This document shows positions 1 through 19,168 of a stretch of 64,000 bases of DNA, one piece after another. This DNA is from Sphingomonas suaedae. GTDB taxonomy: Bacteria; Pseudomonadota; Alphaproteobacteria; Sphingomonadales; Sphingomonadaceae. Where the stretch lies: positions 2,664,001 to 2,728,000 of the forward strand of contig NZ_CP042239.1 of the NCBI RefSeq assembly GCF_007833215.1, given 5' to 3'. A program made the position numbers and the translations under genes. The notes beneath the pieces are model-generated. The model did not search any database and was not told the origin of the DNA. It saw nothing but the letters and a program-made list of their open reading frames with translations. Within the stretch, counting starts at the first letter, position 1; every line of letters begins with the position of its first letter.

Positions 1-1537
1 GCTGCATGTCGATCCTGCCCGGTTCCTCCGTATCGAATTTGGTTGCGACGACACGATCGGGTGCCTCGCCCTTGTCGGCCCAGGCGATCAGCGCAGAGAA
101 CAGATCGTGCCGCGCATCGTCGGACGGCGGCCTTGGCGGGATGCCGAGCGTGGTGTTGAACGCGTCGGGGCCGGTGCCGCCGCCGCAATGCATCATGCCC
201 GGCGCGAGGAACAGGCGCGCGCTGTCCGAGAGTTTGCTGGCGTCGCCCATCTGCGCGGCTTTGCGGTCAAAGAACGCGACCGACTGACCCGGCGGGACAA
301 GGGTGTCGGCAAGTCCGTGAAAGACGATCAGCTTGCCGCCACGTGCCGCGAAGGGCGCGAGGCTGCCGCGTGTGGCGTCGTTGACGATTGCGCCGAGCCG
401 CGCATCGACGAGCGGCATGTCGCGGTCGAAATCGAAGCCCTTCCAGTCCCAATTGGGGCCGAATACCCATTTGAACAGCGCGCCGAAGGGCGGCTGGTCG
501 GCGATCGGCTTTTGCAGGAAGGACCAGCCGAAGGTATCGGGCATCTCGCTGCCCGGCAGCCAGCCATGATAGCTGGGCTTACCATCGCGGTCGGTCGGCC
601 CGGAATAGAAGGCGCGCGCGGTCGCGACCTCGCCTGGCGTCAGGCAACTGTCCGACACTGCGCCGGTACACTGTAGAACCTGCGGATCGAACGTGCACCT
701 CATCGGGTCGGAGATGAAGCGATCGCCCGCCAACGCGTGACCCTGCCGCCAGCACGTCGCGATCGCGGCGTTGTTGAGCAGCTTGAGCTTGGCTTCGGAA
801 AGCAGGCGGCCGGGCGCGCGGTTCGCGGCGGCATAGTTCCACAGCACGGCGGCGTGGCCCCAGGTTCGGTTCATGACCGGCGCGCCCACCAGAATGCCGT
901 CATAATCCTCGGGGTAATGGAACGCTTCGATCAGCCCCATCTGGCCGCCGGTCGAGCAGCCCGTGTAATAGGAGCGCCTGGGATCCTGCCCGTAAAATGC
1001 CCGGGTGATCGCCTTGCCGGTCGTGGTCATCACATGAGTCGAGAGGCGTCCCCAGTCTCGCCATTTGCGCGGCTGACCGATCAGCGCATCGCCTTCAAGT
1101 GGCGTGGCGGGGGCGGTTCCCGCATCGGTCGTGGCGGTCGCAAAGCCACGCCGCAGCCCCTCCACCATGCCCGAATAGCCGAGCGCAAAGGTGCCGGCGA
1201 ACCCGCCGCTGCCATTGCCGTGGAACACGCCGGTCCAGCCCTGCACCGGCAGCCACAGCTCGACGCCGATGTCGGAGCCGGGCTCGGACCGCACGCGCGC
1301 GACGACGCGACAGAAGCTGCGATAGCCGGGAACATCCCCCGCGATCGTTGCTTCTGCGGGCTTGGCGGGCACCAGCACCGCGCTGGCGATGGTCGTATCG
1401 CGCAGATTCAGGCCCGCGAGCGCGGCGCAGCGCGCGGCGGCGTCAGGGGCCGGTTTGCGCGCCTGGGCGTGCGCCACATTCGGAACGGTCCAGAGCGCAG
1501 TCGCGGCGAGCACGGCGATGCAAGGGGTGCCCTTCAT
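1..1537 (-). CDS. Tannase/feruloyl esterase family protein (3' end cut off by window)
   Basis: Predicted secreted serine esterase of the tannase/feruloyl esterase family, which cleaves ester bonds of aromatic or hydroxy-acid esters. About 512 residues are visible; the C-terminus runs off the window. After a signal peptide ending near AHAQA, the nucleophile motif YYTGCSTGGQ (Cys-Ser-x-Gly-Gly), an acid-loop HGLADTLVPP and the PGMMHCGGG histidine motif give the complete Ser-Asp-His triad. The two flanking cysteines fit the disulfide known in this family. It follows the MFS gene by 29 bases and is probably the last gene of the run starting at the TBDT. Start: ATG at 1537 has AAGG just upstream; in-frame alternatives are GTG at 1549, ATG at 1552 and ATG at 1564, so the N-terminus is uncertain by 9 residues. 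The substrate cannot be told from sequence. Confidence 0.88.
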   Translation of the reverse strand, partial: MKGTPCIAVLAATALWTVPNVAHAQARKPAPDAAARCAALAGLNLRDTTIASAVLVPAKPAEATIAGDVPGYRSFCRVVARVRSEPGSDIGVELWLPVQGWTGVFHGNGSGGFAGTFALGYSGMVEGLRRGFATATTDAGTAPATPLEGDALIGQPRKWRDWGRLSTHVMTTTGKAITRAFYGQDPRRSYYTGCSTGGQMGLIEAFHYPEDYDGILVGAPVMNRTWGHAAVLWNYAAANRAPGRLLSEAKLKLLNNAAIATCWRQGHALAGDRFISDPMRCTFDPQVLQCTGAVSDSCLTPGEVATARAFYSGPTDRDGKPSYHGWLPGSEMPDTFGWSFLQKPIADQPPFGALFKWVFGPNWDWKGFDFDRDMPLVDARLGAIVNDATRGSLAPFAARGGKLIVFHGLADTLVPPGQSVAFFDRKAAQMGDASKLSDSARLFLAPGMMHCGGGTGPDAFNTTLGIPPRPPSDDARHDLFSALIAWADKGEAPDRVVATKFDTEEPGRIDMQ

Positions 1538-1566
1538 GATCCTTTTCACCATCTTTCCAGCCATGT

Positions 1567-2877
1567 TCACGCCACGCCGGTCGCCGACGATCGCTTGATC
1601 AGCCGGGCGAGCCACAGGAAGAGCAGGGCGGCGATGAGATACATCGGCGCCAGCGCGTAAAAGGCCATCCGCAGCGAATGGCCGCCATAATCGGCGCGGA
1701 AGAAGTCGCTCGCGATGCCGACAAAGGTCGGGCCAAGGCCGAGGCCGACAAGGTTCATGACGAGCAACAGCAAGGCGCCGGAGATCACCCGTGCGTCCGG
1801 CGCCACCTCGCTCTGGACGAAGGTGACCGTCGCGGGGAGGAAAAAAGAATTGAGGAACAGCGGGACGAACAGAAGCGCGAGCGCCACCTCCCACCGGTCC
1901 GCCGCTGCGAAGCCGAGGAAGAAGGGCAGCGCGAGCACGAGCGACAGCGCCGGTATGGTGGCATAGGCCGCCTTGTTCCGGACGGCGAAGCGATCGATCA
2001 GCTTGCCCGATACGAAGATGCCAGTGCCCATGCCGAGGCCGACGGCGAGCGCGTACCAGATCGCGACCTCTTCGAGCGTCATGCCTTTTTCACGCATCAG
2101 CAACAGCGTGGCGAAGTTGGCCAGACCATAGGTGATGAAATTGGCGGCGCCGCTGGCGAGTGCTGCGACCGCGAGCAGCTTGTTGCCGAAGAAGCCGATG
2201 ATCGCCCGGCCGAAGCTGGGCCTGGGCACGCCGGCGTCGAGCACAGGCGGGGGATCGAAACGGCCGCGCACCGGCTCGGGCACGAGGAAATAGACGAGGA
2301 TGGCGGTGAGTATACCGATCGCGCCGACGACGTAGAAGGGCACACGCCAGTCATAGGCGGCGGCGAGCGACGCGCCGAAGGCGACGCCCAACGCCGACCC
2401 GATCGGCGGGCCGAGGTTGAAGATGCCCATCGCCGTGCCGCGCTGCTCGCGCGGAAAGGTGTCGGAGATGATCGCATAGGATGGCGGGACGCCGCCCGCC
2501 TCGCCCACGCCAACTGCCATCCGCGCGGCAGCGAGCTGACCGTAATTGCCCGCCATGCCGCAGGCGACGGTCGCGCCGCTCCACAGTCCGCAGGCGAGCG
2601 ACAGGATCTTTACCCGGTTCGACCGGTCCGCGAGCCAGCCGATGGGAATGGCGATGAAGCAATAGAAGAGTGCGAAATAGAAGCCGGTGAGATAGCCAAG
2701 CTGGCTGTCGGTGATCTGCAGACCGTCCTGAATCGGCTTGGCGAGGATCGAAACCAGCTGGCGATCGAGGAAGTTGAGCACATAGACGCAGCACAGCATC
2801 CCCAGCACGAAGCCGCCCTTGCCGTTTCGGACGGTATCTGCATCCCCCTGCTGCGGCAGCGTCTGGTTGATCGCCAT
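1567..2877 (-). CDS. MFS transporter, spinster-like
   Basis: Predicted 12-helix inner-membrane transporter of the major facilitator superfamily, 436 residues. The N-terminal segment VYVLNFLDRQLVSILAKPIQ and the loop GWLADRSNRVKIL match the spinster-type MFS proteins common in sphingomonads. Those are often found beside TBDTs and catabolic genes. The ATG at 2877 is preceded by GGAAGGG at 10 bases; an upstream ATG at 2901 has no ribosome binding site. It lies 25 bases after the dehydrogenase gene and probably belongs to its transcript. Expected role: moving the product of the TBDT or esterase across the inner membrane. Direction and substrate are unknown. Confidence 0.88.
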   Translation of the reverse strand: MAINQTLPQQGDADTVRNGKGGFVLGMLCCVYVLNFLDRQLVSILAKPIQDGLQITDSQLGYLTGFYFALFYCFIAIPIGWLADRSNRVKILSLACGLWSGATVACGMAGNYGQLAAARMAVGVGEAGGVPPSYAIISDTFPREQRGTAMGIFNLGPPIGSALGVAFGASLAAAYDWRVPFYVVGAIGILTAILVYFLVPEPVRGRFDPPPVLDAGVPRPSFGRAIIGFFGNKLLAVAALASGAANFITYGLANFATLLLMREKGMTLEEVAIWYALAVGLGMGTGIFVSGKLIDRFAVRNKAAYATIPALSLVLALPFFLGFAAADRWEVALALLFVPLFLNSFFLPATVTFVQSEVAPDARVISGALLLLVMNLVGLGLGPTFVGIASDFFRADYGGHSLRMAFYALAPMYLIAALLFLWLARLIKRSSATGVA

Positions 2878-2902
2878 CGGCGTCGATCCCTTCCTATCCA
2901 TG

Positions 2903-3748
2903 TTATTCTGTGTCGATCCAGCCCGTCCGGCCCTTGCCGCCGCCAAGCCCCGCAGCAACGCGCCGCTTCAACAGCGCGGGCGGGCGGAACCGCTCGCCAT
3001 AGGCGTCGTGCAGGATGCCCTGTACCTGAAGGCAAAGGTCCGACGTGACGATATCCATCATCGCGAAAGGGCCGATCGGGTGGCCCAGGCCGAGGCGGCA
3101 CGCCATATCGAGGTCGGCGGGCGTCGCGACGCCCTCCTCGACCAGCTTGACCGCTTCGATCAGCAGCGCGTGGAGCATCCGGTTGACCGCAAAGCCGGCA
3201 ACGTCGCGGACGCGCACCGGCCGCTTGCCGATATCGGTCATCAACGAAACCACTTCGTCCGCGACGGCCTTGCCGGTCGCGAAGCCGGAAATGACTTCGA
3301 CGAGTTGCATTCGCGACACCGGCGAGAAATAGTGGGTGCCGATGAACCGCCCGCGCCGCTCCGGGGTCAGGAACGCGGCGAGGGTCGAGATCGGCAGCGT
3401 CGAGGTGTTGGTCGCGAAAATGCAGGACGGCGCGCAGATTTGATCCAGCCCGCGCAGTACATCCGCCTTGGCCTCGAGCGCCTCATACACCGCTTCCGTC
3501 ACGATAGCGCAGTCGCGCATGGCGTCGAGGCTGGTGACCGGCACGATCCGCGTCAGCGCGTCATCGGCCGCTGCACCCGCATAGGCCCCGCGCGCCACGC
3601 CCTTGTCCAGCACGCCGCGCAACCGCGCGATGGCGCGGGCCAGCGCCTCTTCGCTTCGATCGTGCAGCGCGACGCGATGTCCCGACAGGGCGAACACCAG
3701 GGCGATCTCGGCCCCCATCAGGCCCGCGCCGACCACCCCGGCCTTCAA
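2903..3748 (-). CDS. 3-Hydroxyacyl-CoA dehydrogenase
   Basis: Stand-alone 3-hydroxyacyl-CoA dehydrogenase, 281 residues, the usual size for the single-function enzyme. It oxidises (S)-3-hydroxyacyl-CoA to 3-ketoacyl-CoA with NAD+. The N-terminal Rossmann motif is GVVGAGLMGAEIA. The segment GTHYFSPVSRMQLVEVI carries the catalytic His, with NTSTLPIS before it, and the C-terminal dimerisation domain contains DVAGFAVNRML and GHPIGPF. The start is taken as TTG at 3748: its last two bases plus the next A form the TGA stop of the upstream synthetase (TTGA overlap), and GGAG lies 7 bases upstream. An ATG at 3790 would put 14 low-complexity residues before the Rossmann strand. Beside acetoacetyl-CoA synthetase it suggests C4 hydroxy/keto-acid metabolism. 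Confidence 0.9.
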   Translation of the reverse strand: MKAGVVGAGLMGAEIALVFALSGHRVALHDRSEEALARAIARLRGVLDKGVARGAYAGAAADDALTRIVPVTSLDAMRDCAIVTEAVYEALEAKADVLRGLDQICAPSCIFATNTSTLPISTLAAFLTPERRGRFIGTHYFSPVSRMQLVEVISGFATGKAVADEVVSLMTDIGKRPVRVRDVAGFAVNRMLHALLIEAVKLVEEGVATPADLDMACRLGLGHPIGPFAMMDIVTSDLCLQVQGILHDAYGERFRPPALLKRRVAAGLGGGKGRTGWIDTE

Positions 3749-5787
3749 GAGACCGCTCCGACGCAGGCATCCGATACACGCTGCCGCCATTGATGCGCCT
3801 GCTCAATGTACCAGGGCAGCACCTCCGGCGTGGCGGTGGCGTCGGGACTGACCACCTTCTCGACCGGCCAGCCGGCAAACAGGCGCTTGATCGGCAGCTC
3901 CTGCTTCTTGCCGGACAAGGTGCGCGGGATGCCGGGCGCGGCGATCACGCGATCGGGCACGAAGCGCGGCGACAGGCGGGTACGGATCGCCGCCGCGATC
4001 GCCGTCTCCATCGCCGCATCCACCGCACATCCCTCGGTCGGGACGACGAACAGGATCAGCTGGCTGTCCCCCTGCGCGGTTTCGAGATCGATCAGCATCG
4101 TGTCGGCGACCTGAGGCAGCTGGTCGACCGCGGCATAGATTTCCGCCGTGCCCATGCGGACCCCGTGCCGGTTGATCGTCGCATCACTGCGGCCGGAGAT
4201 GGTGCAGCTGCCGTCGCTGCCGATCGTCAGCCAGTCGCCGTGCCGCCACACGCCGGGCCAGGTCGCGAAATAGGAATCATGGTAACGGCTGCCATCCGCG
4301 TCGCCCCAGAAATAGAGCGGCATACTCGGGAACGGGCGCGTACAGACCAGCTCGCCCACTTCATCCACGACCGGCCTGCCCTGCTCGTCCCACGCCTCGA
4401 TCGCCGCGCCGAGGTGACGGCATTGCAGACGGCCCGGCGTGTCGGGCAGTTCGGGATTGCCGGCCATGAAGGCGGCGGCAATCTCGGTTCCGCCGCTGAC
4501 ATTGCACCACCAGATGTCGGGACGCCCAAGCTGCGCGAATTGCGCACTGCCCCAGCGCTGCACATCGGGGGGCAGCGGCGACCCGGTGCTGCCCAGCGCG
4601 CGAATATGCGCGATCCCTGGGATGCGCATGATGTCGACCCCGGCCTTGCGGCAACTGGCGAAAAAGGCCGCTCCGGCACCGAACCAGGTAACCCCGCTGG
4701 CCGCTGCGAAGTCCCACAGCCGCGTCCAGTCGGGATCCGCCTTGGTCCCGCTCGGCGATCCGTCGAACAGGCAGATGGTCGTGCCGCTGAGCAGCCCGCC
4801 GACCTGGATGTTCCACATCACCCAGCCGCTGGCGCTGTACCAATGGAAGCGTTCGCCGAAATTATTGGGCCCGTAACTGGGGCCAAGGTCGAAGTGTAGC
4901 CGCCCGGCCGCAGTCGCGATCAGCACGCCGCCATGGCCGTGAACGATCGCCTTGGGCAGTCCGGTAGTGCCGCTGGAATAGAGGATCCACAGCGGATGAT
5001 CGAACGGCAGCCATTCCGGCTCGAACGCGGCGACGGCGTCGTCGTCGCGCGAAATGGTGGTGGCAAACTCGATGGCACCCGGTACGTCACCCACGGCACA
5101 GCCGCTCGCGACGCGGAAGACGCTTTCGATACTGGGGAGTTGCGCGCGCAATTCCTCCACGGCTGCCGCGCGATCCAGCGCCTTGCCCGCATAGAAGACA
5201 CCGTCGACCGCGATCAGCGCCTTGGGCGTGGTCTGGCGCCACCGATCCAACACCGCATTGGTGCCCATGTCTGGCGAGCACAGGGTCCAGATGGCGCCGA
5301 TGCTGGCACAGGCGAGCAGTCCGATCACCGCCGCCGGGATATTGGGCAGATAGGCCGCGACGCGATCCCCCGGCGCGATCCCGCGTGCGCGCAGCGCCAG
5401 CGCCAGCGCCGCCGTCTGCCGCCGCAGCTCGGCCCAGCTGAATGTCACGCTGCCGCCGCGCTCGTCCAGTGCGATGATCGCCGGCTGCCCCGCCGCGTCC
5501 GCCGCATCTACATGCCTAAACACGTGCCGCGCGTAATTGACCTGCGCGCCCTCAAACCAGCGCGCGCCCGGCATCGCGTCGTCGCTCAGGACGGCGGTGA
5601 AGGGCGTCGGCGATTCGATGCCGTCAAACGCCCAGATACTGCGCCAGAACCCGTCGAGATCCTCCACCGACCACCGATGCAGCGCCTCGAAGCTCGCAAA
5701 GGTTCGACCGTGCGTCTGCGCCAGCCAGTCGCGATAGAGCCGGATCTGCGGCACGGGCTGGACGGGGGACACGCTGGCACCGGTCAT
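3745..5787 (-). CDS. Acetoacetyl-CoA synthetase (acetoacetate-CoA ligase)
   Basis: Adenylate-forming ligase, 680 residues, matching the acetoacetyl-CoA synthetase subfamily: acetoacetate + ATP + CoA gives acetoacetyl-CoA. The N-terminal domain typical of the acetyl/acetoacetyl-CoA synthetases is present (LDGFWRSIWAFDGI, ARWFEGAQVNYA). The ATP-binding P-loop is YSSGTTGLPKAIVHG, then SASGWVMWN, the hinge region GRSDATINRHGVRMGTAEIY, and the C-terminal lysine in SGKKQELPIK. The ATG at 5787 has AAGG 11 bases upstream; a TTG directly before it is less likely. The gene overlaps the dehydrogenase by 4 bases and follows the TBDT by 72. Members can accept related 3-oxo or 3-hydroxy acids, so acetoacetate as true substrate is inference. 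Confidence 0.9.
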   Translation of the reverse strand: MTGASVSPVQPVPQIRLYRDWLAQTHGRTFASFEALHRWSVEDLDGFWRSIWAFDGIESPTPFTAVLSDDAMPGARWFEGAQVNYARHVFRHVDAADAAGQPAIIALDERGGSVTFSWAELRRQTAALALALRARGIAPGDRVAAYLPNIPAAVIGLLACASIGAIWTLCSPDMGTNAVLDRWRQTTPKALIAVDGVFYAGKALDRAAAVEELRAQLPSIESVFRVASGCAVGDVPGAIEFATTISRDDDAVAAFEPEWLPFDHPLWILYSSGTTGLPKAIVHGHGGVLIATAAGRLHFDLGPSYGPNNFGERFHWYSASGWVMWNIQVGGLLSGTTICLFDGSPSGTKADPDWTRLWDFAAASGVTWFGAGAAFFASCRKAGVDIMRIPGIAHIRALGSTGSPLPPDVQRWGSAQFAQLGRPDIWWCNVSGGTEIAAAFMAGNPELPDTPGRLQCRHLGAAIEAWDEQGRPVVDEVGELVCTRPFPSMPLYFWGDADGSRYHDSYFATWPGVWRHGDWLTIGSDGSCTISGRSDATINRHGVRMGTAEIYAAVDQLPQVADTMLIDLETAQGDSQLILFVVPTEGCAVDAAMETAIAAAIRTRLSPRFVPDRVIAAPGIPRTLSGKKQELPIKRLFAGWPVEKVVSPDATATPEVLPWYIEQAHQWRQRVSDACVGAVS

Positions 5788-5859
5788 CAAAAGCCAAACC
5801 TTGTTGTTGCTGCTATGGTTGGCGGGCGGCGCCCCGTGCGAGACGCCTCCCGTCAGCGA

Positions 5860-8499
5860 TCAGAAGGAGGTCCGCAGGCTCATCGCCGCATATCGACCGA
5901 TCGCGTTGTAGGCGCCGCCGATGCCGTCGGTGCCCGGGAAGAAGGGCGGGGTCGCATCGAACAGGTCGTTGATCTGCAAGCCCAGCTCCAGCCCCTTGGC
6001 AAAGGCAAGATCGGGCAGCCGCACCGTCAGGCGCAGATCGACGGTCGTGTAACCCTCAGCCTCGTACAGCGCCGAACCGGTCGGCGTCGCATAGGACGCG
6101 GTGACGCCGCTGCGATGATTGACATAGTTGACGAAGGTCACCGGCCCGGCGGTAAAACCAAGCGTGGTGCGCAGCGTGGTGCGCGGAATGCCGGCATCCA
6201 GCGAGTTGCTCACCGCCGAGGTCGGCGAGAGCTGGTTGCGGTAGTTGAGGATGTAATTGCCCGCGACCCCGCCGAAAACCGTGCCGAAACCGACATCGTG
6301 GCGATAGCGCAGGTCGAAATCGATCCCGTTGGTCTCGCGCACCCCGAAATTGCCCTGTCGCAGGTCGAGGATGTTGCCGATCGTCGGCACTGCGGCGAAG
6401 GTGTAGTAAAAGGGAACGGTGTTTGCGATCGCCGCGTTCAGCTGCGCCGCGCTGGGATCGCGGATGACTCGCGCGGCGAAGGTCGGATCGCTGAACAACA
6501 GCGCCCCCAGCCCCGACGGGGTGCCGATCACATTGTCGTAATGAATGTCGTAGAAGGTGACGCTTGCGCTCAGGTTCGGCGCGAAGTTGGGGCGGAAGTC
6601 GGCGCCCAGCGACCAGGTGCGCGCAGTCTCCGGAGTGAGGTCCTGATTCCCGCCATAGAGCAGGATCGTGTTGACCTGCGTCGCGCCGCGCGACGGATCG
6701 CGCGCGCCGAATGCATCGACCAGCGCTGCCGCCGAATAATAGGAGCCGACCGTCGAGCCGAGATCGCGCAGGCCCGGCGCGCGGAACGACCGGCCATAGC
6801 TGCCGCGCAGGTTGATGCCCTCGACCGGTTCCCAGGTCAGCCCGATCTTCGGATTGCTGGTCGAACCGAAGTCGCTGTAATCGTCATAGCGGCCCGAGAG
6901 TGAGAGCGCGAGGCTATGCATTCCCGGCGTTGCATTGCCCTCGCCGAAGATCGGCACGAACAGCTCGCCATAGAGCGACTTGACGTTGCGCTCGAGATCC
7001 TCGGGGAAGCCGACCCCGCCGCTCTGGCCGCGCTGGCGATAGGTTTCGCGGCGATATTCCGCGCCGACCGCGATCTTGAGCGCGCCGCCCGGCAGATCGG
7101 CCAGCGGCCCGTCGACCTTGACCGCACCGATGCGCGTGCGCTGGCGGTTGTCGAAGGTGGTGGGGTTGTCGAGGATCGCCGCGACCACCGCCGGGCTGGT
7201 GCTATAGCCGAACGGATCGAGCGCTGTGGCGGTCGTGGTCCCTGCGGCAGCGGCGGTCAGCGCGGTGGTGTTGATCCCCGGCTGGAACGTGTCGTTGCGC
7301 GAGAAGTTGAACGAACCATAGATGCTTGCCTTGAACTCACCGGGCAGGCCGATATCGACCCCTGCGGTCGCATTGCCGCTGCGGACGCGGAAGGTCTGGT
7401 CGAAATGGTCGGCACCCACCAGCCGGTCCGGGCGGAAATCGAAATATCCGAATAGCGACCCCGTGCCAGGCGGCGCGCGGAAGAACGGATTGGCGGCGGT
7501 GATCAGAACGAATGTCTGACCCGGAAGCGCGGCCTGCACCACGTCGCGGCGGTCCGAATAGAGGAAATCCGCCCATAGAGTGACGGCATCGGACACCTCC
7601 TGTCGCGCGGTCACGAACGCGCTGTGCGTGCGGTTCTGCGGCAACAGATCGACCGGCCCGCGCGGGTCGCAGGTGTTCAGGCCGGGCGCGAGGCTGGGCG
7701 CTGCATAGATCGTCCCGGCGAACAGGTTGACATTCGCATCGGGGCACACCGCCGAACGCGTGTCGATGCCGCCCGCTGCGCGGAAATCGAGCGAGCGATA
7801 GCTGCGGTCGGCACCGGTGATGTTGCTGTTGTCCTGATATTGATAGGCGGCGAGGATCGATCCGCTACCCCAGTCATGCCCGGCGACGAGGCCCGCGCTG
7901 AACGCGTTGTAATCGTCGGCAATGCCGTAGCGGACAATTGCCTCCACCCCCTTCACGCGCTTGCGGGTGATGAAGTTCACGACGCCGGCGACAGCTTCCG
8001 AACCGTAGATCGCCGATGCGCCGTCGGCGACGATCTCGATCCGCTCGATCGCCAGTTCGGGAATGAACGGATAGTCGGGGTTGGTCTGCTGGGTGCTGCC
8101 CGAGATCAGACGATGCCCGTTCATCAGCGGCAGCGTCGCGGCGGTCGGCAGGCCGCGCAGGCCGGGCGCGAACGAGCCAAGGCCGTTGTTGCTGACCCGC
8201 GGCGCCGTGTTGAAGCTGTTGAGCTGCGGCACGGTCGCCAGCAGTTCGGGCGTGCTCGCCGCGCCGATCAGCTTCGCGTCCTCACGCGTCACGCTGATCA
8301 GGCCGGAGCCGGTGGGTGGAATCCCGCGAATGCTCGAGCCGGTGATGACAATCTCGGTCGCCTCTTCCGAATCCGGCTCCGCAACAGGCTCGGTCGCTTG
8401 CGCATACGCCGCCACAGGGGCGGCCAGCAGCGCCAGAGCCAGCGCGGAACGACCGAGCAGCTGCGCACGGCGTCCAAGATGATCGGTTCGGATCGACAT
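5860..8499 (-). CDS. TonB-dependent outer-membrane receptor (AraC-linked)
   Basis: Outer-membrane TBDT, 879 residues, for energised uptake of an unidentified ligand. Signal peptide: SALALALLAAPVAAYAQA. A TonB-box-like EIVITGSSI follows, then a plug domain (about residues 60-180, with LPLMNGHRL and IEIVADGASAIYGSEAVAGVVNFIT) and a 22-strand-type barrel ending in the usual terminal aromatic, LRTSF. No STN domain, so no sign of direct sigma-factor signalling. Start: ATG at 8499 behind AAGGAGGGG; a longer in-frame opening to 8589 lacks a signal-peptide-like start. First gene of a run leading into CoA ligase, dehydrogenase, MFS and esterase. The divergent AraC-type gene is its probable regulator. 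Confidence 0.93.
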   Translation of the reverse strand: MSIRTDHLGRRAQLLGRSALALALLAAPVAAYAQATEPVAEPDSEEATEIVITGSSIRGIPPTGSGLISVTREDAKLIGAASTPELLATVPQLNSFNTAPRVSNNGLGSFAPGLRGLPTAATLPLMNGHRLISGSTQQTNPDYPFIPELAIERIEIVADGASAIYGSEAVAGVVNFITRKRVKGVEAIVRYGIADDYNAFSAGLVAGHDWGSGSILAAYQYQDNSNITGADRSYRSLDFRAAGGIDTRSAVCPDANVNLFAGTIYAAPSLAPGLNTCDPRGPVDLLPQNRTHSAFVTARQEVSDAVTLWADFLYSDRRDVVQAALPGQTFVLITAANPFFRAPPGTGSLFGYFDFRPDRLVGADHFDQTFRVRSGNATAGVDIGLPGEFKASIYGSFNFSRNDTFQPGINTTALTAAAAGTTTATALDPFGYSTSPAVVAAILDNPTTFDNRQRTRIGAVKVDGPLADLPGGALKIAVGAEYRRETYRQRGQSGGVGFPEDLERNVKSLYGELFVPIFGEGNATPGMHSLALSLSGRYDDYSDFGSTSNPKIGLTWEPVEGINLRGSYGRSFRAPGLRDLGSTVGSYYSAAALVDAFGARDPSRGATQVNTILLYGGNQDLTPETARTWSLGADFRPNFAPNLSASVTFYDIHYDNVIGTPSGLGALLFSDPTFAARVIRDPSAAQLNAAIANTVPFYYTFAAVPTIGNILDLRQGNFGVRETNGIDFDLRYRHDVGFGTVFGGVAGNYILNYRNQLSPTSAVSNSLDAGIPRTTLRTTLGFTAGPVTFVNYVNHRSGVTASYATPTGSALYEAEGYTTVDLRLTVRLPDLAFAKGLELGLQINDLFDATPPFFPGTDGIGGAYNAIGRYAAMSLRTSF

Positions 8500-8571
8500 G
8501 ACCTTATCCCCTCCTTGATGTCTGTTCGTCGCGGCCATCGCCGCCGCCGGGCTTTGCCGACTTGATGCCTT

Positions 8572-8599
8572 GCTTATGGTCTGACACACCCAAGGGTAA
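8572..8599 (-). promoter_or_regulatory. Weak candidate promoter for the TBDT run
   Basis: On the minus strand TTACCC (8594-8599) and ATAAGC (8572-8577) are separated by 16 bases. Both hexamers are poor matches to the sigma-70 consensus, as is common where an activator is needed. The direct repeats at 8605-8635 lie immediately upstream of the -35 element. Tentative. Confidence 0.3.
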
Positions 8600-8604
8600 G
8601 CGCA

Positions 8605-8635
8605 TTGGCGGACATCGCTATGTCTTTAGCGGACA
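8605..8635. promoter_or_regulatory. Two direct repeats 21 bp apart, candidate AraC-family operator
   Basis: TTGGCGGACA (8605-8614) and TTAGCGGACA (8626-8635) differ at one base and start 21 bp apart, two helical turns. Between and overlapping them is an inverted GACAT-CGCT-ATGTC (8611-8624). Tandem half-sites at about 21 bp are the known binding geometry of AraC itself. Their place between the divergent TBDT and AraC-type genes makes them the likely operator; binding is inferred. Confidence 0.6.
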
Positions 8636-8656
8636 GATGCAGCGGGAGAATAAGCG

Positions 8657-9733
8657 ATGGCGGGCAACGCAATAGATGACGGTGGAGCAACCGGTCGCAA
8701 CCCGCGGGCGGGGTTTCCCTCGCTCAACCAGCGCAGCTTCGCCCCGTTCAAGATCGCGACGGTGATCGACACCGTTGCCGATCGCGGGATCAGCGCTGAG
8801 ACCGTGCTGGAGCGCACCGGCCTGTCACTGGCGGAGGTGCGCGATCCCCACACGATGACCTCGATCGGCCAGTATCTCACCGCGTGCGAGAACATCGTCG
8901 CGGCGGGGGCCGGGTTCGCCGACGCATTCGCGATCGGCGCCCGCCTCCACCTCTCGGCCTATGGCATGTACGGCTATGCGTTGATGTGTTCGCCGACGAT
9001 GCGCGACTTTTTCGACTTCGCCGTGCGCTACCAGCCGCTCGCCACGCCCACGGTGCGCCTCGAATGGCGGGCCGAGGGCGATGTGGCGATCTGGCAGTTC
9101 CGGGAAATCTATCGCGACGTGATGAGCAGCGACGTGCGCACCTTTCTGGTGCGCCAGCAGATGAAGATGACCTTTACCCATATCCGCGATACGGCGGGCA
9201 CCGACAATTTGCCGGTCCGAGCGCTGTTCGCCTTGCCCGAAGACTCGTTTTCGGCGGAGGACGCACGCGCGCTGTCCTGTCCGTGCCTGTATGATCAGGA
9301 GGCGAACGAACTCCATTATGCGATCGGCATCCTCGACCAGACGCCCGAGCTGGGGAACCGGTTGACCCGGACGATGCTTGAGGAGACGTGCGACCGGCTG
9401 ATCGGCCAGTCGCGGATATCCTCCGGCCTGTCGGGTGAGGTCTATCAGTTGCTGATGAACGCCCCGAGCCACTTTCCCTCGATGGAGGCGATCGCCGAGC
9501 AGCTGGGGCTGCAGGAGCGGACGCTACGCCGTCGACTCGCGGCCGAGGACTCCAGCTATGGCGCGATCGTCGACGATGTCCGCCGCAAGCTGGCGATCGA
9601 ATATCTCCAGACGACACGGATGAGCGTGGACGATGTCGCCTGGAAGGTAGGCTTCAGCGACAGCGCGAACCTGCGCCGCGCGGTCCGGCGCTGGACCGGC
9701 AAGACGATCAGCGAGATTCGGGCCCGCAAATAG
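8657..9733 (+). CDS. AraC-family transcriptional regulator with arabinose-binding-like sensor domain
   Basis: Transcription factor of 358 residues. Residues about 40-230 look like the Arabinose_bd sensor domain found in OruR/PhbR-type regulators (SLAEVRDPHTMTSIGQY, FADAFAIGARLHLSAYGMYGYAL). Residues about 245-355 form the double helix-turn-helix: MEAIAEQLGLQERTLRRRLA and MSVDDVAWKVGFSDSANLRRAVRRWTG. GGGAGAATAAGCG precedes the ATG. It is divergent from the TBDT gene with the 21-bp-spaced repeats between them, so it probably controls that run and perhaps itself. The ligand is unknown; a breakdown intermediate of the imported compound is the natural guess. Confidence 0.92.
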   Translation: MAGNAIDDGGATGRNPRAGFPSLNQRSFAPFKIATVIDTVADRGISAETVLERTGLSLAEVRDPHTMTSIGQYLTACENIVAAGAGFADAFAIGARLHLSAYGMYGYALMCSPTMRDFFDFAVRYQPLATPTVRLEWRAEGDVAIWQFREIYRDVMSSDVRTFLVRQQMKMTFTHIRDTAGTDNLPVRALFALPEDSFSAEDARALSCPCLYDQEANELHYAIGILDQTPELGNRLTRTMLEETCDRLIGQSRISSGLSGEVYQLLMNAPSHFPSMEAIAEQLGLQERTLRRRLAAEDSSYGAIVDDVRRKLAIEYLQTTRMSVDDVAWKVGFSDSANLRRAVRRWTGKTISEIRARK

Positions 9734-10467: not shown

Positions 10468-13281
10468 TTACATGCGTATTCGCACGCCGACGGTGTAACG
10501 CCGACCGATCTTGTCGTAATATTGCCCGTTTACCGGAGCGTTCAGGACGAAATAGGGTGTCGGGCGCGGATCCTGGTCAAACAGGTTATTCACTGCCCAG
10601 AAGAGTTCGTAGTTCTTTTCCTCTCCTGAGAAGAACTTGCCCGTCAGGTTGAAATACCATGTCGATGGCACGCGATTGTCGTTGATCGTCGGTCCACCGG
10701 GAATATTGTAGGTCTTGTCCTGCACCCCCGCGCTGATGAACATCGTCTGCAGCGAGACTTCCCATAGATCATTGCCGAGCGTCTGGCTCAGATCGGCGCG
10801 AAATTTCGGGATCGCGCCAAGCGTGGACGCATTCATCGCCCCGGAATGATCGAATGGGACGGAACCCACCGTCCCGGGATCGACGACCGAACGGAGCACA
10901 TAGGTTCCGCTCGCCCCGACACTGTACCTGCCGCTTTCGCCGAGAAAGCCGACGCGGCTGTCGTAATTCAACGTCCCGTCAATCCCCTCCTGGGTGAAGG
11001 AGCCGAGATTGAGCGTTCCGGCGAGCATGGCGGTGTGGATGCGCTCCCCGGGCGCGGCGGGGTCGGGTCCATAGGTGAAGGCGTTGCAAAAGGCCTGGTC
11101 GCCCGCGCTGCACAGCTGGGCGATCTGCGCGCTGGTGGGGTTGGAGATCGCATCCGTGATGCGGATATTGTAATAATCGATGGACACCCCCAGCCCGCGC
11201 AGCGCCCCGGTGCCCCGATACGCAACGCCGGCCGTCCAGGTATCGCCGAGTTCCGGTTTGACGTTGATGTTCCCGGCGGTCGCATTCTGCGGAATATTTG
11301 CGGTCTTGCTCTTGCCGTCGACGATCAGCGTGATCGGATTGGTCAGAACGTTGCCGGGGCTATACAGCTCGTTGAGAGCGGGCGCGCGAATGTCGCGCGA
11401 GCGCGAAACGCGCAGGACCAGGCCATCAAGCGGCTCCCATACCGCACCGGCCTTCCACGCGGTCTGCCCGCCTGCGGTGCTGTAATCGGCATAGCGCAGC
11501 GCGCCGTTCAGATTGAATCCGGTGAAAAGCGGCGCGGTCGCCTCGGCATAGCCCTCTGTCACGCTGAAACTGCCGGACCAGGGAATTGCATTGCCCGCGC
11601 CCAGATAGCCGCTCGCCGCCGAAATCGGATCGGCAGTGAGACGGGACGTCTCCCTGCGATGTTCGCCGCCAAAGGCGAGGCGGAGCGCCCCACCGGGAAG
11701 GTCGAACAGATTGCCGACCACATTCGCGGCGACCGTGAACTGGGTATATTTGACGTCGGAGGCAGGCTCGCCCCAGATATAGTCGCGCGCCGCGGCACTC
11801 GTATTGCCTTCGCCGAACAGATCGAGCGGCTGGCATCCTGCGGCAGCCGGATTGTTCTGCGCCACGGCGCGACAGACGATCCGACCGTTCGATACGCCGG
11901 TGAGAAACCGCCCCTCATCCACCGCGTCGATCGCAAAATTGAGGTTTTGCGTGACCAGGACCTTGCTGGCGCGCTGTTTGAAATAGTTGATGCCGTAGCT
12001 GCTGTGCGCGTCCCAGCTCCAGCTGCCGCCCAGCTTGCCCTTCAGGCCGATCGTGCCGTGCGGCGTCTCGTTGGTGACGCGGAACTGGTTGTTGCCGATA
12101 TCGAAGCCGATCCGGCTGATGCTGATCGACTGGTTCTCGGGCAGCAGCGCGCGAACCTCCGCTGGCAGGAATGGGTTGTCGCCCCGGATCGTCTGGCTGT
12201 TGAGGCGCAGCACCGCGCTGGTGATGGTGCCCTGCGCCTTCGACCAGCCACCCTCGACATAGGCGGTCAGGGAGTCCGAAAAGTCGAAATAGAGGCTGCC
12301 ATACAGGGTCCCCCGCTCGACACCGGGTACGGTCGTGGTCTGCGCATTGACCGACTGGCCTTCGCCGCCGACCATCACCCGGCCATCGATCGGACTGCCA
12401 TAGTCGAACCTGCGCAGCGACTTGTCGGGATTGAAGGTCATCCCGACCAGCGCGGCAAGCGCCGGAGACGCGCCGGTCGGAACGCGAACGATCACGCCGC
12501 CAGCGCCCAGCGAGTTGACCACATTTTCCGCGAGCAGCAGATCGGTTGGGCCTGTGCGGTCGGTGACGATCAGATGCTCGCGACGACCCCAGTCGCGTGA
12601 ATAGAAGCTGCCTACTCCCTCGACGTCCGAATAGTCCGCGCTGAGGACGAGGTGCCCGCGCCCGTCGGCGAAATCGGTGCCCGCCAGTACGCCGACGCGG
12701 AAACGACGGTCGTCCCCCTCTTCCGAAATGCCGGTCTGAACACGTGCGTCGATCCCGTCATAGCGGGTCTTCATGATGAGGTTGACCACGCCCGACACCG
12801 CGTCGGAACCATAGAGTGCGGAGGCGCCGCCCGTTACCACGTCGATCCGGTCGATCATGATCGTCGGCATCAGATTGAGGTCGGTGGTATTCGGCGTGCT
12901 CTGGTTGGCCGAAGGCGCGAACGGTACGACGCGCGAGCCATTGACCAGCACCAGCGTCCGCTGCCCGCCAAGTCCCCGCAAATCCGCGGTCGCCTGACCC
13001 GGGCTGGACAAATTGGTCGCGTTTGCCCCTGGGGACCGCGATGCCTTGAAGGCCGGGTTCTGGTTCAGCACGTCCATGATCGTTTCCGCAGCGCGGCGAT
13101 CAATCGTTTCCGCACCGACCACCTGGGTGGGCGTTGGTGCATCCAAACCGTTGGTGGCCGTGCGCGATGCGGTGATGACGATCGCATCGGAGTCGGACTC
13201 GTCGCCGATATCCTGCGCGGCGGCCGGGCACGCCAGCAACGCCAGGCCACTGCATGTGGCCAGAAAAAATGCCTTATCCAT
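10468..13281 (-). CDS. TonB-dependent outer-membrane receptor (second of the ECF locus)
   Basis: TBDT of 937 residues. The signal peptide runs from MDKAFFLATCSGLALL to ACPAAAQD; the TonB-box-like stretch is AIVITASRT. The plug covers about residues 45-170 (VDVLNQNP-like MDVLNQNPAFKASRS, TLVLVNGSRVVPF, IDVVTGGASALYGSDAVSGVVN), then the barrel. The protein ends in VRIRM rather than a terminal Phe, as in many long sphingomonad TBDTs. No STN domain. The ATG at 13281 is preceded by AAGGGGGG at 8 bases. It starts 21 bases after the amidohydrolase and probably shares its transcript. The ligand is unknown; having two TBDTs around one hydrolase suggests related ligands or substrate and product. Confidence 0.92.
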   Translation of the reverse strand: MDKAFFLATCSGLALLACPAAAQDIGDESDSDAIVITASRTATNGLDAPTPTQVVGAETIDRRAAETIMDVLNQNPAFKASRSPGANATNLSSPGQATADLRGLGGQRTLVLVNGSRVVPFAPSANQSTPNTTDLNLMPTIMIDRIDVVTGGASALYGSDAVSGVVNLIMKTRYDGIDARVQTGISEEGDDRRFRVGVLAGTDFADGRGHLVLSADYSDVEGVGSFYSRDWGRREHLIVTDRTGPTDLLLAENVVNSLGAGGVIVRVPTGASPALAALVGMTFNPDKSLRRFDYGSPIDGRVMVGGEGQSVNAQTTTVPGVERGTLYGSLYFDFSDSLTAYVEGGWSKAQGTITSAVLRLNSQTIRGDNPFLPAEVRALLPENQSISISRIGFDIGNNQFRVTNETPHGTIGLKGKLGGSWSWDAHSSYGINYFKQRASKVLVTQNLNFAIDAVDEGRFLTGVSNGRIVCRAVAQNNPAAAGCQPLDLFGEGNTSAAARDYIWGEPASDVKYTQFTVAANVVGNLFDLPGGALRLAFGGEHRRETSRLTADPISAASGYLGAGNAIPWSGSFSVTEGYAEATAPLFTGFNLNGALRYADYSTAGGQTAWKAGAVWEPLDGLVLRVSRSRDIRAPALNELYSPGNVLTNPITLIVDGKSKTANIPQNATAGNINVKPELGDTWTAGVAYRGTGALRGLGVSIDYYNIRITDAISNPTSAQIAQLCSAGDQAFCNAFTYGPDPAAPGERIHTAMLAGTLNLGSFTQEGIDGTLNYDSRVGFLGESGRYSVGASGTYVLRSVVDPGTVGSVPFDHSGAMNASTLGAIPKFRADLSQTLGNDLWEVSLQTMFISAGVQDKTYNIPGGPTINDNRVPSTWYFNLTGKFFSGEEKNYELFWAVNNLFDQDPRPTPYFVLNAPVNGQYYDKIGRRYTVGVRIRM

Positions 13282-13302
13282 CACCTCATCCCCCCTTGTC
13301 GG

Positions 13303-14313
13303 TCAGTTTTGCGTCGGCACGGGCGGCAGACCGAGCAGCGCCGCCGGGTTATCGGCCGTCATCCGGCGCACCTCCGCCGCAGTGAACCCGCGCCCACGGA
13401 GCAGGCCTGCAACCATCGCAATCATGTCGTCGGGCATGACCTGCCCCAATTGCCCGCCATCGCTGCTCAGGATCACATGGTCGGGACCGAGCGTGCGGAT
13501 CGCCCGGGCATATTGGTCGAAGGTGAAACTGGCGCGCTGCCCGATCAGAAATCCGGCGACGAATTCGATCTGCGCGCCCAGGCGGACGGCTTCCTGCATC
13601 TGCGCCATGGTCATGTCGATCGGATGGCCGATGGCGTGCGTCACAAAGACCCGCGCGATCCCCTGTCGCTTCGCCTCGCGGATGACCATCAGCGCCTCGG
13701 CCGGACTCAAATGCCCGGTCGCGAGTGCGAGGCGGACGTCGCTGTCGCGGACATCGGCCTTTGCGATCGCGGCGATCACCGCCTTTGTTTCGGCCAGCAG
13801 CTCGCCGTCTTTCGAAACGCGCACGGGCGGCCGGTCCTGTCCGCGCGAGGTGATGTTCTTCTCGCTATCCCAGGTGGGCATACTGACGATGCGCGCGCGC
13901 CCGCCCTTCACCTCGCCGAAATGATACACCGCCGCCGGGTTCAGCCCCCCCATCGGGTGGTTGAGACATAGCTGGCCGAACACCTCGACACCCGGCACCG
14001 CTTTTGACGCAAGATAGGCGAGCTGGGCGGTCTGATCGTAATGCTGCTTGATGACGAAGCCGCGCATTCCCGCCTTCTTCGCGCGCTCCGCCATGTCGAT
14101 CACGTCCAGCGCGCGGCGGGCCTGCACGCTGTGCGGTCCGAAGCTGTCGGGATCGAGATGGGTGTGGATATCGATCGCTCCGCGCAGCATCGCCCGGTCC
14201 GCGGGCGTCGGCGGCGGCAGCCTTCCCAGCGGAAATTGCGCCCAGGCCGGCCGGGCCAGGAGCAGGCCGGGCGCCAGAGCCATCAGGGCACGGCGGTTCA
14301 TGGATCCGTTCAC
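13303..14313 (-). CDS. Secreted amidohydrolase-fold protein (DUF6282-like)
   Basis: Predicted periplasmic metal-dependent hydrolase of 336 residues with a TIM-barrel amidohydrolase look. Signal peptide: RRALMALAPGLLLARPAWAQ. Candidate metal ligands are the HxH in AIDIHTHLD, the Lys in GFVIKQHYD, histidines in FVTHAIGHPIDM and Asp in ILSSDGGQ. Segment order resembles the DUF6282 family; the reaction is unknown. A start at GTG 14313 is chosen because AAGGAG lies 9 bases upstream; the ATG at 14301 is the alternative. It sits 40 bases after the STN-type TBDT and 21 before the next TBDT, so all three likely form one operon. Confidence 0.8.
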   Translation of the reverse strand: MNGSMNRRALMALAPGLLLARPAWAQFPLGRLPPPTPADRAMLRGAIDIHTHLDPDSFGPHSVQARRALDVIDMAERAKKAGMRGFVIKQHYDQTAQLAYLASKAVPGVEVFGQLCLNHPMGGLNPAAVYHFGEVKGGRARIVSMPTWDSEKNITSRGQDRPPVRVSKDGELLAETKAVIAAIAKADVRDSDVRLALATGHLSPAEALMVIREAKRQGIARVFVTHAIGHPIDMTMAQMQEAVRLGAQIEFVAGFLIGQRASFTFDQYARAIRTLGPDHVILSSDGGQLGQVMPDDMIAMVAGLLRGRGFTAAEVRRMTADNPAALLGLPPVPTQN

Positions 14314-14353
14314 GCTCTCAAACTCCTTGATGTTCCGATGGCGTGACGCGCCG

Positions 14354-17300
14354 TCACAGTCGCAACCGTGCGCCCACGACGTAGAAGGTGCCGCGACGGT
14401 CGAAGAACTGCGAGTTGGCGATCGTCGGCGTCGCGATCGAATTGGGCGTGATCGGCGGATAGACGTTGAACAGGTTTTCAACGCGGCCATAGAGTTCGAT
14501 GTTCGATGTCAGCTTGTACGATCCCGACACGTCGACATAGCTGCGCCCGGCCACAGTGTTGTCGGCGATGTCGAGTCGGGTGATGTTGAAGCGCGTATCG
14601 AAGTTGCCGCCGTCGATATAGCGATAGCCGATGCCCAACTTGAACTTCCCGATCGCGTAATTCGCGTCGAGATTGACGCGCCATTCGGGCACGCCCTGGG
14701 GTGGCGCGCCAATGCCGGCCAGACCGACATAGTCGTTGGTCGTGCCGTTGGAGGTGGTCGACAGTTCGGCGACATAATTTGCCAGCCCGCGCAGACCGAG
14801 ATCGCCCCCCAGGAAAGCGGTCCGGTACTGCAGCTCGAAATCGACCCCGCTGGTCTTCAACGCCTCGGCATTGAACGGCGCGGCGTTGATTTGGGTGATG
14901 ATCCCGGTGCTGGGGTTGCGGATCACGCTGGCGCAGAATTCGGTCCGCCCGTCTTCGCAGAAATCGACGATATTCTGCGAAGGGACGGTGGCGATCGCCT
15001 GGTTGATCTTGATGCGGTAGTAATCCACCGATGCCCTCAGCCCCGGAAGAAAGTCCGGCTGCAAGACCACCCCGGCGGTGAAGGTATCGGCCTTTTCGGG
15101 CTCCAGTGCCGGATTGCCGGCGGTGATCTGCAAGGTCGGGCGCGCCACATTGTCGCGCGGATCGATGATCCCGTTGATCACCTGATTGCCGCGCGAGAAC
15201 AGTTCCCAATTGTTGGGCGCGCGGATATCCCGCGACAGCGTGGCGCGAAACCGGACATCCGGAATGGGCGAATAATTGACGCCGACTTTCCAGGTGGTGA
15301 CCGCACCGCTCAGCTCGTAATCCGTGTAGCGAACGGCACCGTTGAGTTCGAGATTGTCGGCAAAGCGGCTGCCGTTGGCGAGTGGCACCACGACCTCCGC
15401 ATAGCCTTCCTTGACGTCGAACTCGCCCTCGAACGGTTGGGAATTGATCGAGCGCCAGCGCCGCGCAGCCGAATCGTCATCGGCGGTGAGCACGGTCTTT
15501 TCGCGGCGATATTCGGCGCCGATCGCGACCTTCACATCGCCTGCCCAGGTTGCAAACGGACTGCCCGACAAATTGGCCGCGAACACGTCCTGTTCCTGCC
15601 GTGAGCGTGTCCAGGATGTACCGCGATAATAGTCGAGCGCCCGCTGATCGATCGATCCGGCACCGAACGGGTCGATCGGCACGCACTCACGAATATCGCG
15701 ATAGGGGTCCTGCGCATCGGTCGGGTTCGGATTGGCAAGCAGCGCGCGGCAGACCGGCCGGTTGGTCGCCGGATCGATCACGCTGTCGATGCCCATCCTC
15801 CAGCGACTGTTGATCCGGTTATAGTGGCTGATCGACTCGTAACTGTTGCGGCTGATCTGGCCGGAAATGTCCCAGGTCCAGCCGTCACCGAACCGCCCCT
15901 CCAGCCCGAAGGTGAAGCGGTTGACCTCCGTCTTGTTGTCGAACAGCGACGTCTGGTCTTCGTAATTCATGCGACCGAGCAGAAAGCTGTTCACGCCAGC
16001 CGCCGTCATCGCGTCCCGCATCGGCGACGCCAGGAATGCGTTGTCGATCTGGATGGTTACGCCGGCATCGTCCCGGTTCGGGGACAGGTCGGACAGGACG
16101 TTCACGCGCGAATAGAGAAAATCGGTGAAGAAGGTGACGTTGTCGGTGATGTCGAACCGGACGCCGCCATAAGCCGTGACACGCTCGATTTCCGGCAGGA
16201 TGTTGCCATCGTCGGTCAGCTGACCGCCATCGCCCCCCGTCATGAAGGTGCCGCCGATATTGGTGCCATAGACGAACGGAACCGGGTTGCCGTTACGATC
16301 GAACTGTACCCCCGTGCCTGCCGCGAAGCCCAGGCGCTGCGCCAGGCTGGGTCCCGTCGCATTGGGATTGGCGGAATTGGTGCGGGTGATGACGCCGCCC
16401 GCCGTCATGTTGGTGAACCGCGCATTGTCGGAGATGATCAGGCGGGGCTGGCCGTTGGTCGGCGTGTAGGCCGGATTGGTCAGCAGCGCCGTCCCCCGGC
16501 TGCCCCAAGGCCGGGTCGCCTGCGCCGTCTGACCGCTGTTGCGCATATAGTCGCCGGCAAGGGTCAGTTGCAGCCGATCGTCGAAGAGCTTGGTGCCATA
16601 GGCGCCGCTGACTGCGGGCCGGTGATGGTCGTCATAGATGGTCTGTCCATAGGACGCGTCCAGCCTCAGCCCCTTGAGATTCTTGTCGAGGATGAAATTG
16701 ACCACGCCCGCGACCGCATCCGATCCATAGGCGGCGGAGGCGCCGCCGGTGACGATCTCGACATTGCTGATCAATGCGACGGGGACGATGTTGGTGTCGA
16801 TCGTCCCGGCCGGATCGGTGAAGGCGACCCGGCGGCCGTCGATCAGGAGCAGCGTGCGCTGGGTGCCCAGCGCGCGCAGGTCTGCATTGGATCCGCCGAC
16901 CGGCTCGCTCGACTTGCCGATATTCTGGTTGATGCGAAGCTGCGGCACGTCGTCGAGCAATTCCGAAACGGTGCTCACCGCCTTGCGGTCCAATTCCCCC
17001 CGGCCCAATATCGTGACGGGCGTCGGGGCGGTGAAGCCGCTGATCCGCGTTCCCGTGACCGTGATCGCCTCCTCCTCCGCCGGGGCAGGCTCGACGCTCG
17101 CGGTTTCCGCCTGGGGCGGTGCCTCGCTCGTTCGAGCGGGCTCGGGCGCCCTGCGCGGCGCGGGGAGCGCATCGATCACATAGCTGTTCGCATTCGCCTT
17201 GCGGACCGTGAGGCCGGTGCTGGTCAGCAATTTGCGCAACGCATCGTCCGGGGAATGCTTGCCGCGCAGCGCGTGCGAACGCACGCCGATCAGCCGGGCA

Positions 17301-17494: not shown

Positions 17495-17556
17495 TCCTCT
17501 CCCCCATCTGGTCGGGCGTTTGCGCCCTCTATCCATTCAAGACGCAGGGATTTGAT

Positions 17557-17583
17557 GAGTCCGAACGATATTCGTTATTTTCC
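17557..17583 (-). promoter_or_regulatory. Candidate FecI-type ECF promoter for the STN-type TBDT
   Basis: On the minus strand, starting at the last base of the fecR stop codon, GGAAAATAA is followed about 20 bases after its first G by CGGACTC. As recalled, the E. coli fecA promoter has GGAAAT and a similar AT-rich spacer, so the resemblance is suggestive only. It lies in the 88-base gap between fecR and the TBDT, where a promoter for the cognate sigma factor is expected. Confidence 0.5.
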
Positions 17584-18647: not shown

Positions 18648-19168
18648 GGCAGTTCCTCCCGCAATGCGGCGAGAACCCTGCTGATATCCTTTTCGATCTG
18701 GCGTTGTGAAAGGCCGAGAAACGCCGCGATCTCACGCCCCGTCATTTCCTCGAACCGGTTGAGAATGAACACCATACGGGGGCGCTCCGGCAGAGCCTCC
18801 AATATTCTGAGAAAGCGGCTGTAACTGTCCTTGCCGATCATCTCGCGTTCGGGCGATATCTCGTCGATCAGCCTTCCCAGCGGATCGGCGAACCCTTCGC
18901 CCTGAATATCCGGCCGAACGGTGCGGCGGCGCGACCGGTCGCGCAGCAAATTGGTCGCGACCTGAAAGACATAGCCCTCGATATTCTCGATCGCGTCGCC
19001 ATCGGACCGGCGGGCCAGCGACGCGAACACATCCTGCGTCAGGTCATCCGCCTCGGCGCGATCCCTCACCCGGCGCAGGAAAAAGGCATGTACCGCCCGC
19101 TCATAGCGCAAGGCGATCGATGCAACGTCGTGCCGGTTATCGGCGGGTTGGCGGATCTGGGCGCACAT
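18644..19168 (-). CDS. ECF RNA polymerase sigma factor, FecI-type
   Basis: Extracytoplasmic-function sigma factor of 174 residues. Region 2 is about residues 18-85 (YERAVHAFFLRRVRDRAEADDLTQDVF, then YVFQVATNLLRDRSRRR) and region 4 about 120-170 (LPERPRMVFILNRFEEMTGREIAAFLGLSQRQIEKDISRVLAAL). There is no long C-terminal extension. The ATG at 19168 has AGGAGG 7 bases upstream; the in-frame GTG at 19186 would run through that site. With fecR overlapping and an STN-domain TBDT next, this is a typical cell-surface-signalling set. The GGAAAATA found in the candidate TBDT promoter recurs upstream of this gene at 19217-19224, but without the same spacing to a -10 element. Confidence 0.93.
   Translation of the reverse strand: MCAQIRQPADNRHDVASIALRYERAVHAFFLRRVRDRAEADDLTQDVFASLARRSDGDAIENIEGYVFQVATNLLRDRSRRRTVRPDIQGEGFADPLGRLIDEISPEREMIGKDSYSRFLRILEALPERPRMVFILNRFEEMTGREIAAFLGLSQRQIEKDISRVLAALREELP

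Follow-up and report, generated by a model that had tools for sequence, protein, structure and literature searches.

The nearest described route to the one considered here is the ketone-body route of the polyhydroxybutyrate (PHB) cycle of Sinorhizobium meliloti (phaZ, bdhA, acsA2), in which the hydroxy acid is oxidized first and acetoacetate is then activated (PMC5596199). The subject of the present analysis is a five-gene operon with a divergent AraC-family gene in a window of 64,000 bases, the whole stretch of DNA that was analysed, which corresponds to positions 2664001-2728000 of the single-contig, 4,154,291-base genome of Sphingomonas suaedae. This module shares with the S. meliloti route an acyl-CoA ligase of the acetoacetyl-CoA-synthetase family (AACS), which acts there in 3-hydroxybutyrate breakdown, and differs from it in having a CoA-level dehydrogenase after the ligase, together with a TonB-dependent transporter (TBDT) and an apparently secreted esterase, and in lacking bdhA within the operon; the one BdhA of the genome that scores over its cut-off is encoded at 2294238, about 370 kb from the module and unlinked to AACS. 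The esterase shares the PF07519 family domain with feruloyl esterases and MHETase, and GCSTGG, D and HC motifs are visible in its sequence; unlike in the case of those enzymes, the partner genes in the module point to a 3-hydroxy acid and not to terephthalate or ferulate. SusCD-type polysaccharide utilization loci of Bacteroidota are TBDT-linked nutrient loci, and the module resembles them in combining outer-membrane active transport, a hydrolase, an inner-membrane carrier and a dedicated regulator in one locus, whereas an esterase replaces the glycan hydrolases and CoA-level catabolism is placed inside the operon. No SusD-like family was found among the nine proteins scanned with Pfam and NCBIfam, and a literature search of titles and abstract openings returned no paper describing this gene combination, a weak negative as most subscription papers lie outside its coverage.

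The module is a genuine conserved and locally regulated operon, and its most likely role is ester catabolism. With modest confidence, we favour the reading that it is dedicated to the import and catabolism of an ester or oligoester containing a short or medium 3-hydroxy acid. In this scheme the ester would pass the outer membrane uncleaved through the TBDT and be cut in the periplasm by the tannase-family esterase; the MFS transporter would carry the released acid inward, where the ligase would join the hydroxy acid as such to CoA and the dehydrogenase would oxidize the thioester to the 3-ketoacyl-CoA, leaving the final step to a thiolase encoded elsewhere. The AraC protein, bound at one operator, would switch the operon on in response to a pathway compound. 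The genes present, their order and conservation, the single occurrence of the operator-like repeat and the exchange of the ligase before one dehydrogenase lineage are observed directly; the direction of the MFS transporter, the cell locations, the substrate class and all enzyme activities are inferred. Generic annotations thereby turn into a testable uptake route for an unassigned ester class, with a predicted substrate type for the TBDT and this tannase-family group, and into a one-operator regulon whose ligand could be screened for.

Gene order, conservation and the putative operator

All five genes of the operon are on the minus strand. The TBDT gene (5860..8499; Plug and beta-barrel, PF07715/PF00593), whose start ATG 8499 is preceded by AAGGAGG, is followed by the genes for the AACS-family ligase (3745..5787), the 3-hydroxyacyl-CoA dehydrogenase of the (3S)-type family (2903..3748), whose TTG start overlaps the ligase stop, the MFS transporter (1567..2901; PF07690; start ATG 2901, with ATG 2877 as a possible alternative) and the tannase/feruloyl-esterase-family hydrolase (1..1570; PF07519; GTG start). 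The last of these continues for 98 bases beyond the window start, with its stop codon ending at L004:9903. The AraC-family gene (8657..9733; PF12625/PF12833, Arabinose_bd and HTH_18) is divergent on the plus strand. Given the chosen starts, 72 bases separate the TBDT gene from the ligase gene, the ligase and dehydrogenase genes overlap by 4 bases, 1 base lies between the dehydrogenase and MFS genes, and the MFS and esterase genes overlap by 4 bases. The first-pass annotation of this DNA had named the same gene families and the divergent regulator, which the Pfam and NCBIfam profile matches bear out, and had correctly given gaps of at most 72 bases with two overlaps; its count of five genes after the TBDT has to be corrected to four, five in total.

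A dehydrogenase scan of the named genome contigs yielded 44 loci, which were compared with the six module proteins. The complete arrangement, with a divergent AraC gene and the order TBDT-ligase-dehydrogenase-MFS-esterase, was present in 12 loci, namely the window, ten of these 44 (L035, L036, L037, L039, L040, L041, L043, L045, L074 and L078) and, in addition, L125. These span Sphingomonas, Blastomonas, Sphingopyxis, Qipengyuania, an unclassified Sphingomonadales metagenome-assembled genome and another genus (L125, counted as complete although its stretch ends within the AraC gene), with TBDT identities of 79-92% across the complete copies and AraC identities of 81-90% in ten named ones. The same gene order in other genera argues against a chance arrangement, and the conservation outside the strain on which the first-pass annotation had staked its proposal was thus found. 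A further locus, L038, matches the order until its contig ends inside the MFS gene. That of S. pruni (L042) is rearranged into an MFS gene of another type, an M28 peptidase, another TBDT, AACS, the dehydrogenase, a carboxylesterase, a PF00756 esterase, a Pfam-less protein, a PF00144 protein, the tannase-family esterase and a TBDT; among the additions of this operator-bearing island (L042:2506-16196) are the M28 peptidase, the PF00144 (beta-lactamase family) protein and the Pfam-less protein, which has 436 residues. Of the other 32 of the 44 loci, L044 has a different ligase in the AACS place, and the other 31 showed no tannase-family relative in the available DNA, which partly consists of short contigs.

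Within the family, the distribution of the module is patchy. The dehydrogenase (E up to 1e-90) was found in 6 of 199 genomes sampled evenly from the family, the own genome counted. Two of the six (G000, G245) carry the AACS-type module and two (G264, which holds L044, and G219) the swapped ligase, while G284 and G259 have neither an AACS nor a tannase-family gene near the dehydrogenase. Among 100 near genomes, own included, five have a full-length ligase with 56% identity or more, and four have an esterase with 65% identity or more; beyond these, the ligase search matched a 77-residue fragment in G007 (68%) and a protein in G049 (41%). The next-best ligase match in the own genome is only 32% identical.

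The intergenic regions between the AraC and TBDT genes align across 12 loci, and in 11 of them CGGACA occurs twice, 21 bases apart, the first copy in L039 being GGGACA. In the window, this putative AraC operator, a direct repeat CGGACA-N15-CGGACA with 21 bases from start to start, lies at 8609..8635 on the plus strand and is the sole exact match. A scan of the window allowing two mismatches returned 15 matches against 9.0 expected, and 15 were reached in 4 of 100 shuffles; for this reason the exact site alone was used. Searched genome-wide with at most one mismatch, the pattern CGGACAN6TGTCNTTNNCGGACA had exactly one site in each of the 13 AACS-type genomes, matching perfectly in 11 and with a single mismatch in two, and no site in either of the two swapped-ligase genomes, and a reversed control pattern had none in all 15 genomes scanned. 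The operator is also present in L125, of which the stretch alone was searched. The one site of S. pruni is located between the AraC gene and the rearranged island, and in L044 a different, co-directional AraC-family gene precedes the TBDT gene. One site per genome is the pattern expected of a one-operon regulator, and we infer that the AraC protein may bind the CGGACA repeat and activate the operon. A wider AraC regulon was considered and set aside, as no further member appeared at up to one mismatch. The segment from the operator to the TBDT start (8500-8608) has conserved patches of its own in 12 loci, one of them GC-rich and possibly folding.

Ligase, dehydrogenase and the nature of the released acid

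The ligase scores over the curated cut-offs for acetoacetate-CoA ligase (TIGR01217, 685.8 against 520.9 bits; NF002937, 869.9 against 639 bits), and it matches PDB 4wd1 with 651 bits. After a conserved Trp, the 12 aligned module ligases have Trp where 4wd1 has Ile, at a position that we take to be the equivalent of Acs Trp414. The same Trp occurs in AACS genes outside the module (G011, G048), so that the idea of a module-specific pocket was dropped. AACS-family enzymes also activate 3-hydroxybutyrate; the available passages of PMC8359440 contain no statement to this effect. Other AACS-family genes of the genus (L110, L111, L113) stand, as judged by eye, in apparent aromatic ring-cleavage clusters together with fumarylacetoacetase-like genes.

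The dehydrogenase has both domains over cut-off (PF02737, 183.6 bits; PF00725, 84.8 bits), and its best PDB matches are Hbd/PaaH-type chains, of which 9fbd aligned over residues 2-277 of 281; by family expectation it should be of the (3S)-type. In L044, L109 and L124, the place of AACS directly before the dehydrogenase is taken by an AMP-ligase of the PRK06018 / 3-(methylthio)propionyl-CoA-ligase type, the ligases of L044 and L109 scoring below the cut-offs of these models and that of L124 being assigned by its 72% identity to the L044 ligase. In a dehydrogenase tree of 40 rows, which does not include L124, the 13 AACS-type rows and the two swapped rows (L044, L109) form one clade with support 95/94, and its sisters are Croceicoccus and three other rows. 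As the ligase was exchanged before the same dehydrogenase lineage, the ligase would seem to feed the dehydrogenase, which in turn suggests that a 3-hydroxy acid is activated directly. Moreover, L124 contains a single-strand run of TBDT, short-chain dehydrogenase/reductase (SDR), second ligase, thiolase, ligase, dehydrogenase, MFS and esterase genes, and the best PDB matches of its SDR are MFE-2 chains (2et6, 370 bits over two domains; 3oml, 198; 1gz6, 196), the best other SDRs reaching 153-154 bits. One operon thus holds dehydrogenases of both stereo-types, together with a thiolase that could act after them. A carboxylesterase-SDR-thiolase group adjoins the module in L125, and of eight loci inspected, several have non-module relatives of the dehydrogenase close to genes that, by eye, resemble those for acyl-CoA dehydrogenase, hydratase or thiolase.

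The first-pass annotation had proposed that an ester of a short 3-hydroxy or 3-keto acid is imported, hydrolysed in the periplasm and activated directly as the acid. This logic is partly supported and holds in outline: the conserved, locally regulated unit stands, as does the sequence from ester to 3-hydroxy acid to CoA thioester, to which the ligase swap and the thiolase and (3R)-type dehydrogenase of one swapped operon point, while activation of acetoacetate as such appears less likely than that of the hydroxy acid.

Several observations weigh against a 3-hydroxy acid ester as the substrate. The dehydrogenase is below cut-off in all 20 of its NCBIfam matches and thus falls in no subfamily or equivalog, including 3-hydroxybutyryl-CoA dehydrogenase. 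Natural free 3-hydroxy acids are mostly (3R), whereas the dehydrogenase family is of the (3S)-type. The window operon has no thiolase, and the MFS transporter could be an exporter. The swap does not tell which ligase type is ancestral, as the basal branching of the clade, where L042, L044 and L109 stand, is not resolved. By its model scores the module ligase counts as a true acetoacetate-CoA ligase, so acetoacetate may be the substrate; two AACS-family genes in G011 and one in G049 have neighbours that, by eye, resemble fumarylacetoacetase and monooxygenase genes, a setting in which acetoacetate could plausibly be formed. The solved relatives of the esterase include feruloyl esterase B and MHETase chains, and in L039 an alpha/beta hydrolase resembling, by eye, meta-cleavage-product hydrolases (L039:816-1661) is encoded about 2.4 kb beyond the AraC gene.

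The ligase scores and the G011 and G049 neighbourhoods speak for acetoacetate or another 3-keto acid as the released acid, in which case the dehydrogenase would take part in a side reaction or act on a mixed hydroxy/keto substrate. We regard this as unlikely, as the operon has no acetoacetate-making gene, a non-AACS ligase stands before the same dehydrogenase in three loci, and such a route needs no 3-hydroxyacyl-CoA dehydrogenase. Somewhat less probable still is an ester of an aromatic acid, cut by a feruloyl- or gallate-type esterase, with the ligase and dehydrogenase acting on 3-aryl-3-hydroxypropionate or 3-aryl-3-oxopropionate; it would suit the solved esterase relatives and the hydrolase of L039, whereas the ligase is of the acetoacetate type with far lower scores against benzoate and coumarate ligases, and no ring-cleavage gene was seen by eye to recur beside the module in the loci read.

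About as doubtful as the aromatic ester are (R)-3-hydroxybutyrate oligomers from PHB breakdown. Their chemistry agrees with a C4 ligase, a PF10503 (Esterase_PHB) protein is encoded in the own genome (E 7e-35), and the short-chain polyhydroxyalkanoate depolymerase model gives weak matches to the module esterase and to an accessory PF00756 esterase (29 and 37.6 bits, far from the 150-bit cut-off). Set against this, the dehydrogenase family is of the (3S)-type, and BdhA-type proteins over cut-off in 15 of 15 module genomes offer another route for free (R)-3-hydroxybutyrate. PF10503 reached E<1e-29 in 6 of these 15 genomes, own included, and had no match at E 0.001 in three; by this distribution, the module and the PHB esterase do not go together. 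The BdhA and PF10503 results count against the favoured reading as well. Hydroxybutyrate oligomers, the example substrate of the first-pass annotation, thus gained no specific support from these searches, none of which was aimed at the 3-hydroxybutyrate oligomer hydrolase family; they did not single out PHB but did not speak decisively against it either, the own genome having an Esterase_PHB protein. Liamocin-type fungal esters were no more than an idea for the substrate. That the genes are mere neighbours of no shared function, for which only the general caution speaks that operons can carry unrelated genes, is hardly credible in view of the same order in 12 complete loci, the overlapping genes and the one conserved operator-like repeat per genome.

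A companion operon and accessory esterases

A more interesting lead than the hydroxybutyrate example is a parallel second operon of the own genome at 3606577-3615181 (L126:4078-12682), reached through searches with the L124 SDR and the L109 ligase, which comprises genes for a TBDT, an MFS transporter, a PF00135 carboxylesterase, a ligase, a TetR regulator and an SDR and lay outside the view of the first-pass annotation. Its order is repeated in three further module genomes (L127, L128, L130), and in 11 of 17 module genomes a distance of 760-890 bases separates the ligase and SDR genes. The SDR matches 2et6 with 376.7 bits (two domains), 1zbq with 206.9 and 1gz6 with 205.8, as compared with 159.2 for 7ulh and 146.2 for the FabG-type 4rzh, and by these scores is closer to MFE-2 than to FabG-type SDRs. 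Peroxisomal MFE-2 (2et6, 1zbq) is thus its closest solved relative, from which it differs as a separate, single-domain, bacterial protein encoded beside a ligase, an esterase and a TBDT. The two MFS transporters of the own genome, from the module and the companion operon, are 58% identical, with three other MFS proteins from the examined loci matching weakly or not at all; between the two TBDTs there is little similarity (25% over 200 residues).

The companion SDR (E up to 1e-90) was found in 15 of 17 module genomes and in 5 of 19 further genomes of the genus (Fisher 2.4e-4, kinship ignored); for the companion ligase (E up to 1e-150) the counts were 15 of 17 and 8 of 19, respectively (Fisher 5.8e-3, kinship likewise ignored). 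The module genomes G105 and G108 have neither at these thresholds. The SDR and ligase queries come from G219 and G043 and match themselves, each also having a second copy. As relatedness is uncorrected, these figures serve as indications. Parts of the companion operon adjoin the module in L038, L040, L074 and L125, and lie within about 5 kb of it in L036/L130 and L044/L132. Here we speculate, tentatively, that the two operons are paired by epimer, one combining an AACS-type ligase with a (3S)-type dehydrogenase, a tannase-family esterase and AraC, the other combining a DmdB-like ligase with a (3R)-type SDR, a carboxylesterase and TetR, and that together they might harvest both 3-hydroxy-acid epimers of an abundant, unrecognized natural ester, skipping the free keto acid. 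If true, common environmental bacteria would be using an unrecognized natural pool of 3-hydroxy-acid esters. A GH20 beta-hexosaminidase gene lies just upstream of the companion operon (L126:1341-3932), and near that of G011 is a relative (57%) of the 436-residue protein of L042 (L129:5530-6870), likewise Pfam-less.

The module esterase matches PF07519 over cut-off with 286.1 bits over the whole gene (profile 2-489 of 490), and its N-terminus, like that of several relatives, looks by eye like a signal peptide. Extra secreted-looking esterases are encoded in the operon of some genomes. Relatives of the L044 esterase (E up to 1e-120) number 526, with Nitrospirillum, Azospirillum and Niveispirillum among the 120 listed. 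A 972-residue database protein (P0007) carries carboxylesterase PF00135 and tannase PF07519 domains and may be a fusion of the esterases that are adjacent in L044 and L109.

Beyond the AraC gene, the window region 10468-19186 contains a second TBDT (10468-13284) together with SnoaL-like and DUF6282 proteins, and, as named by eye, a TBDT-like open reading frame of 1060 residues and anti-sigma-like (17583-18647) and sigma-like (18644-19186) open reading frames.

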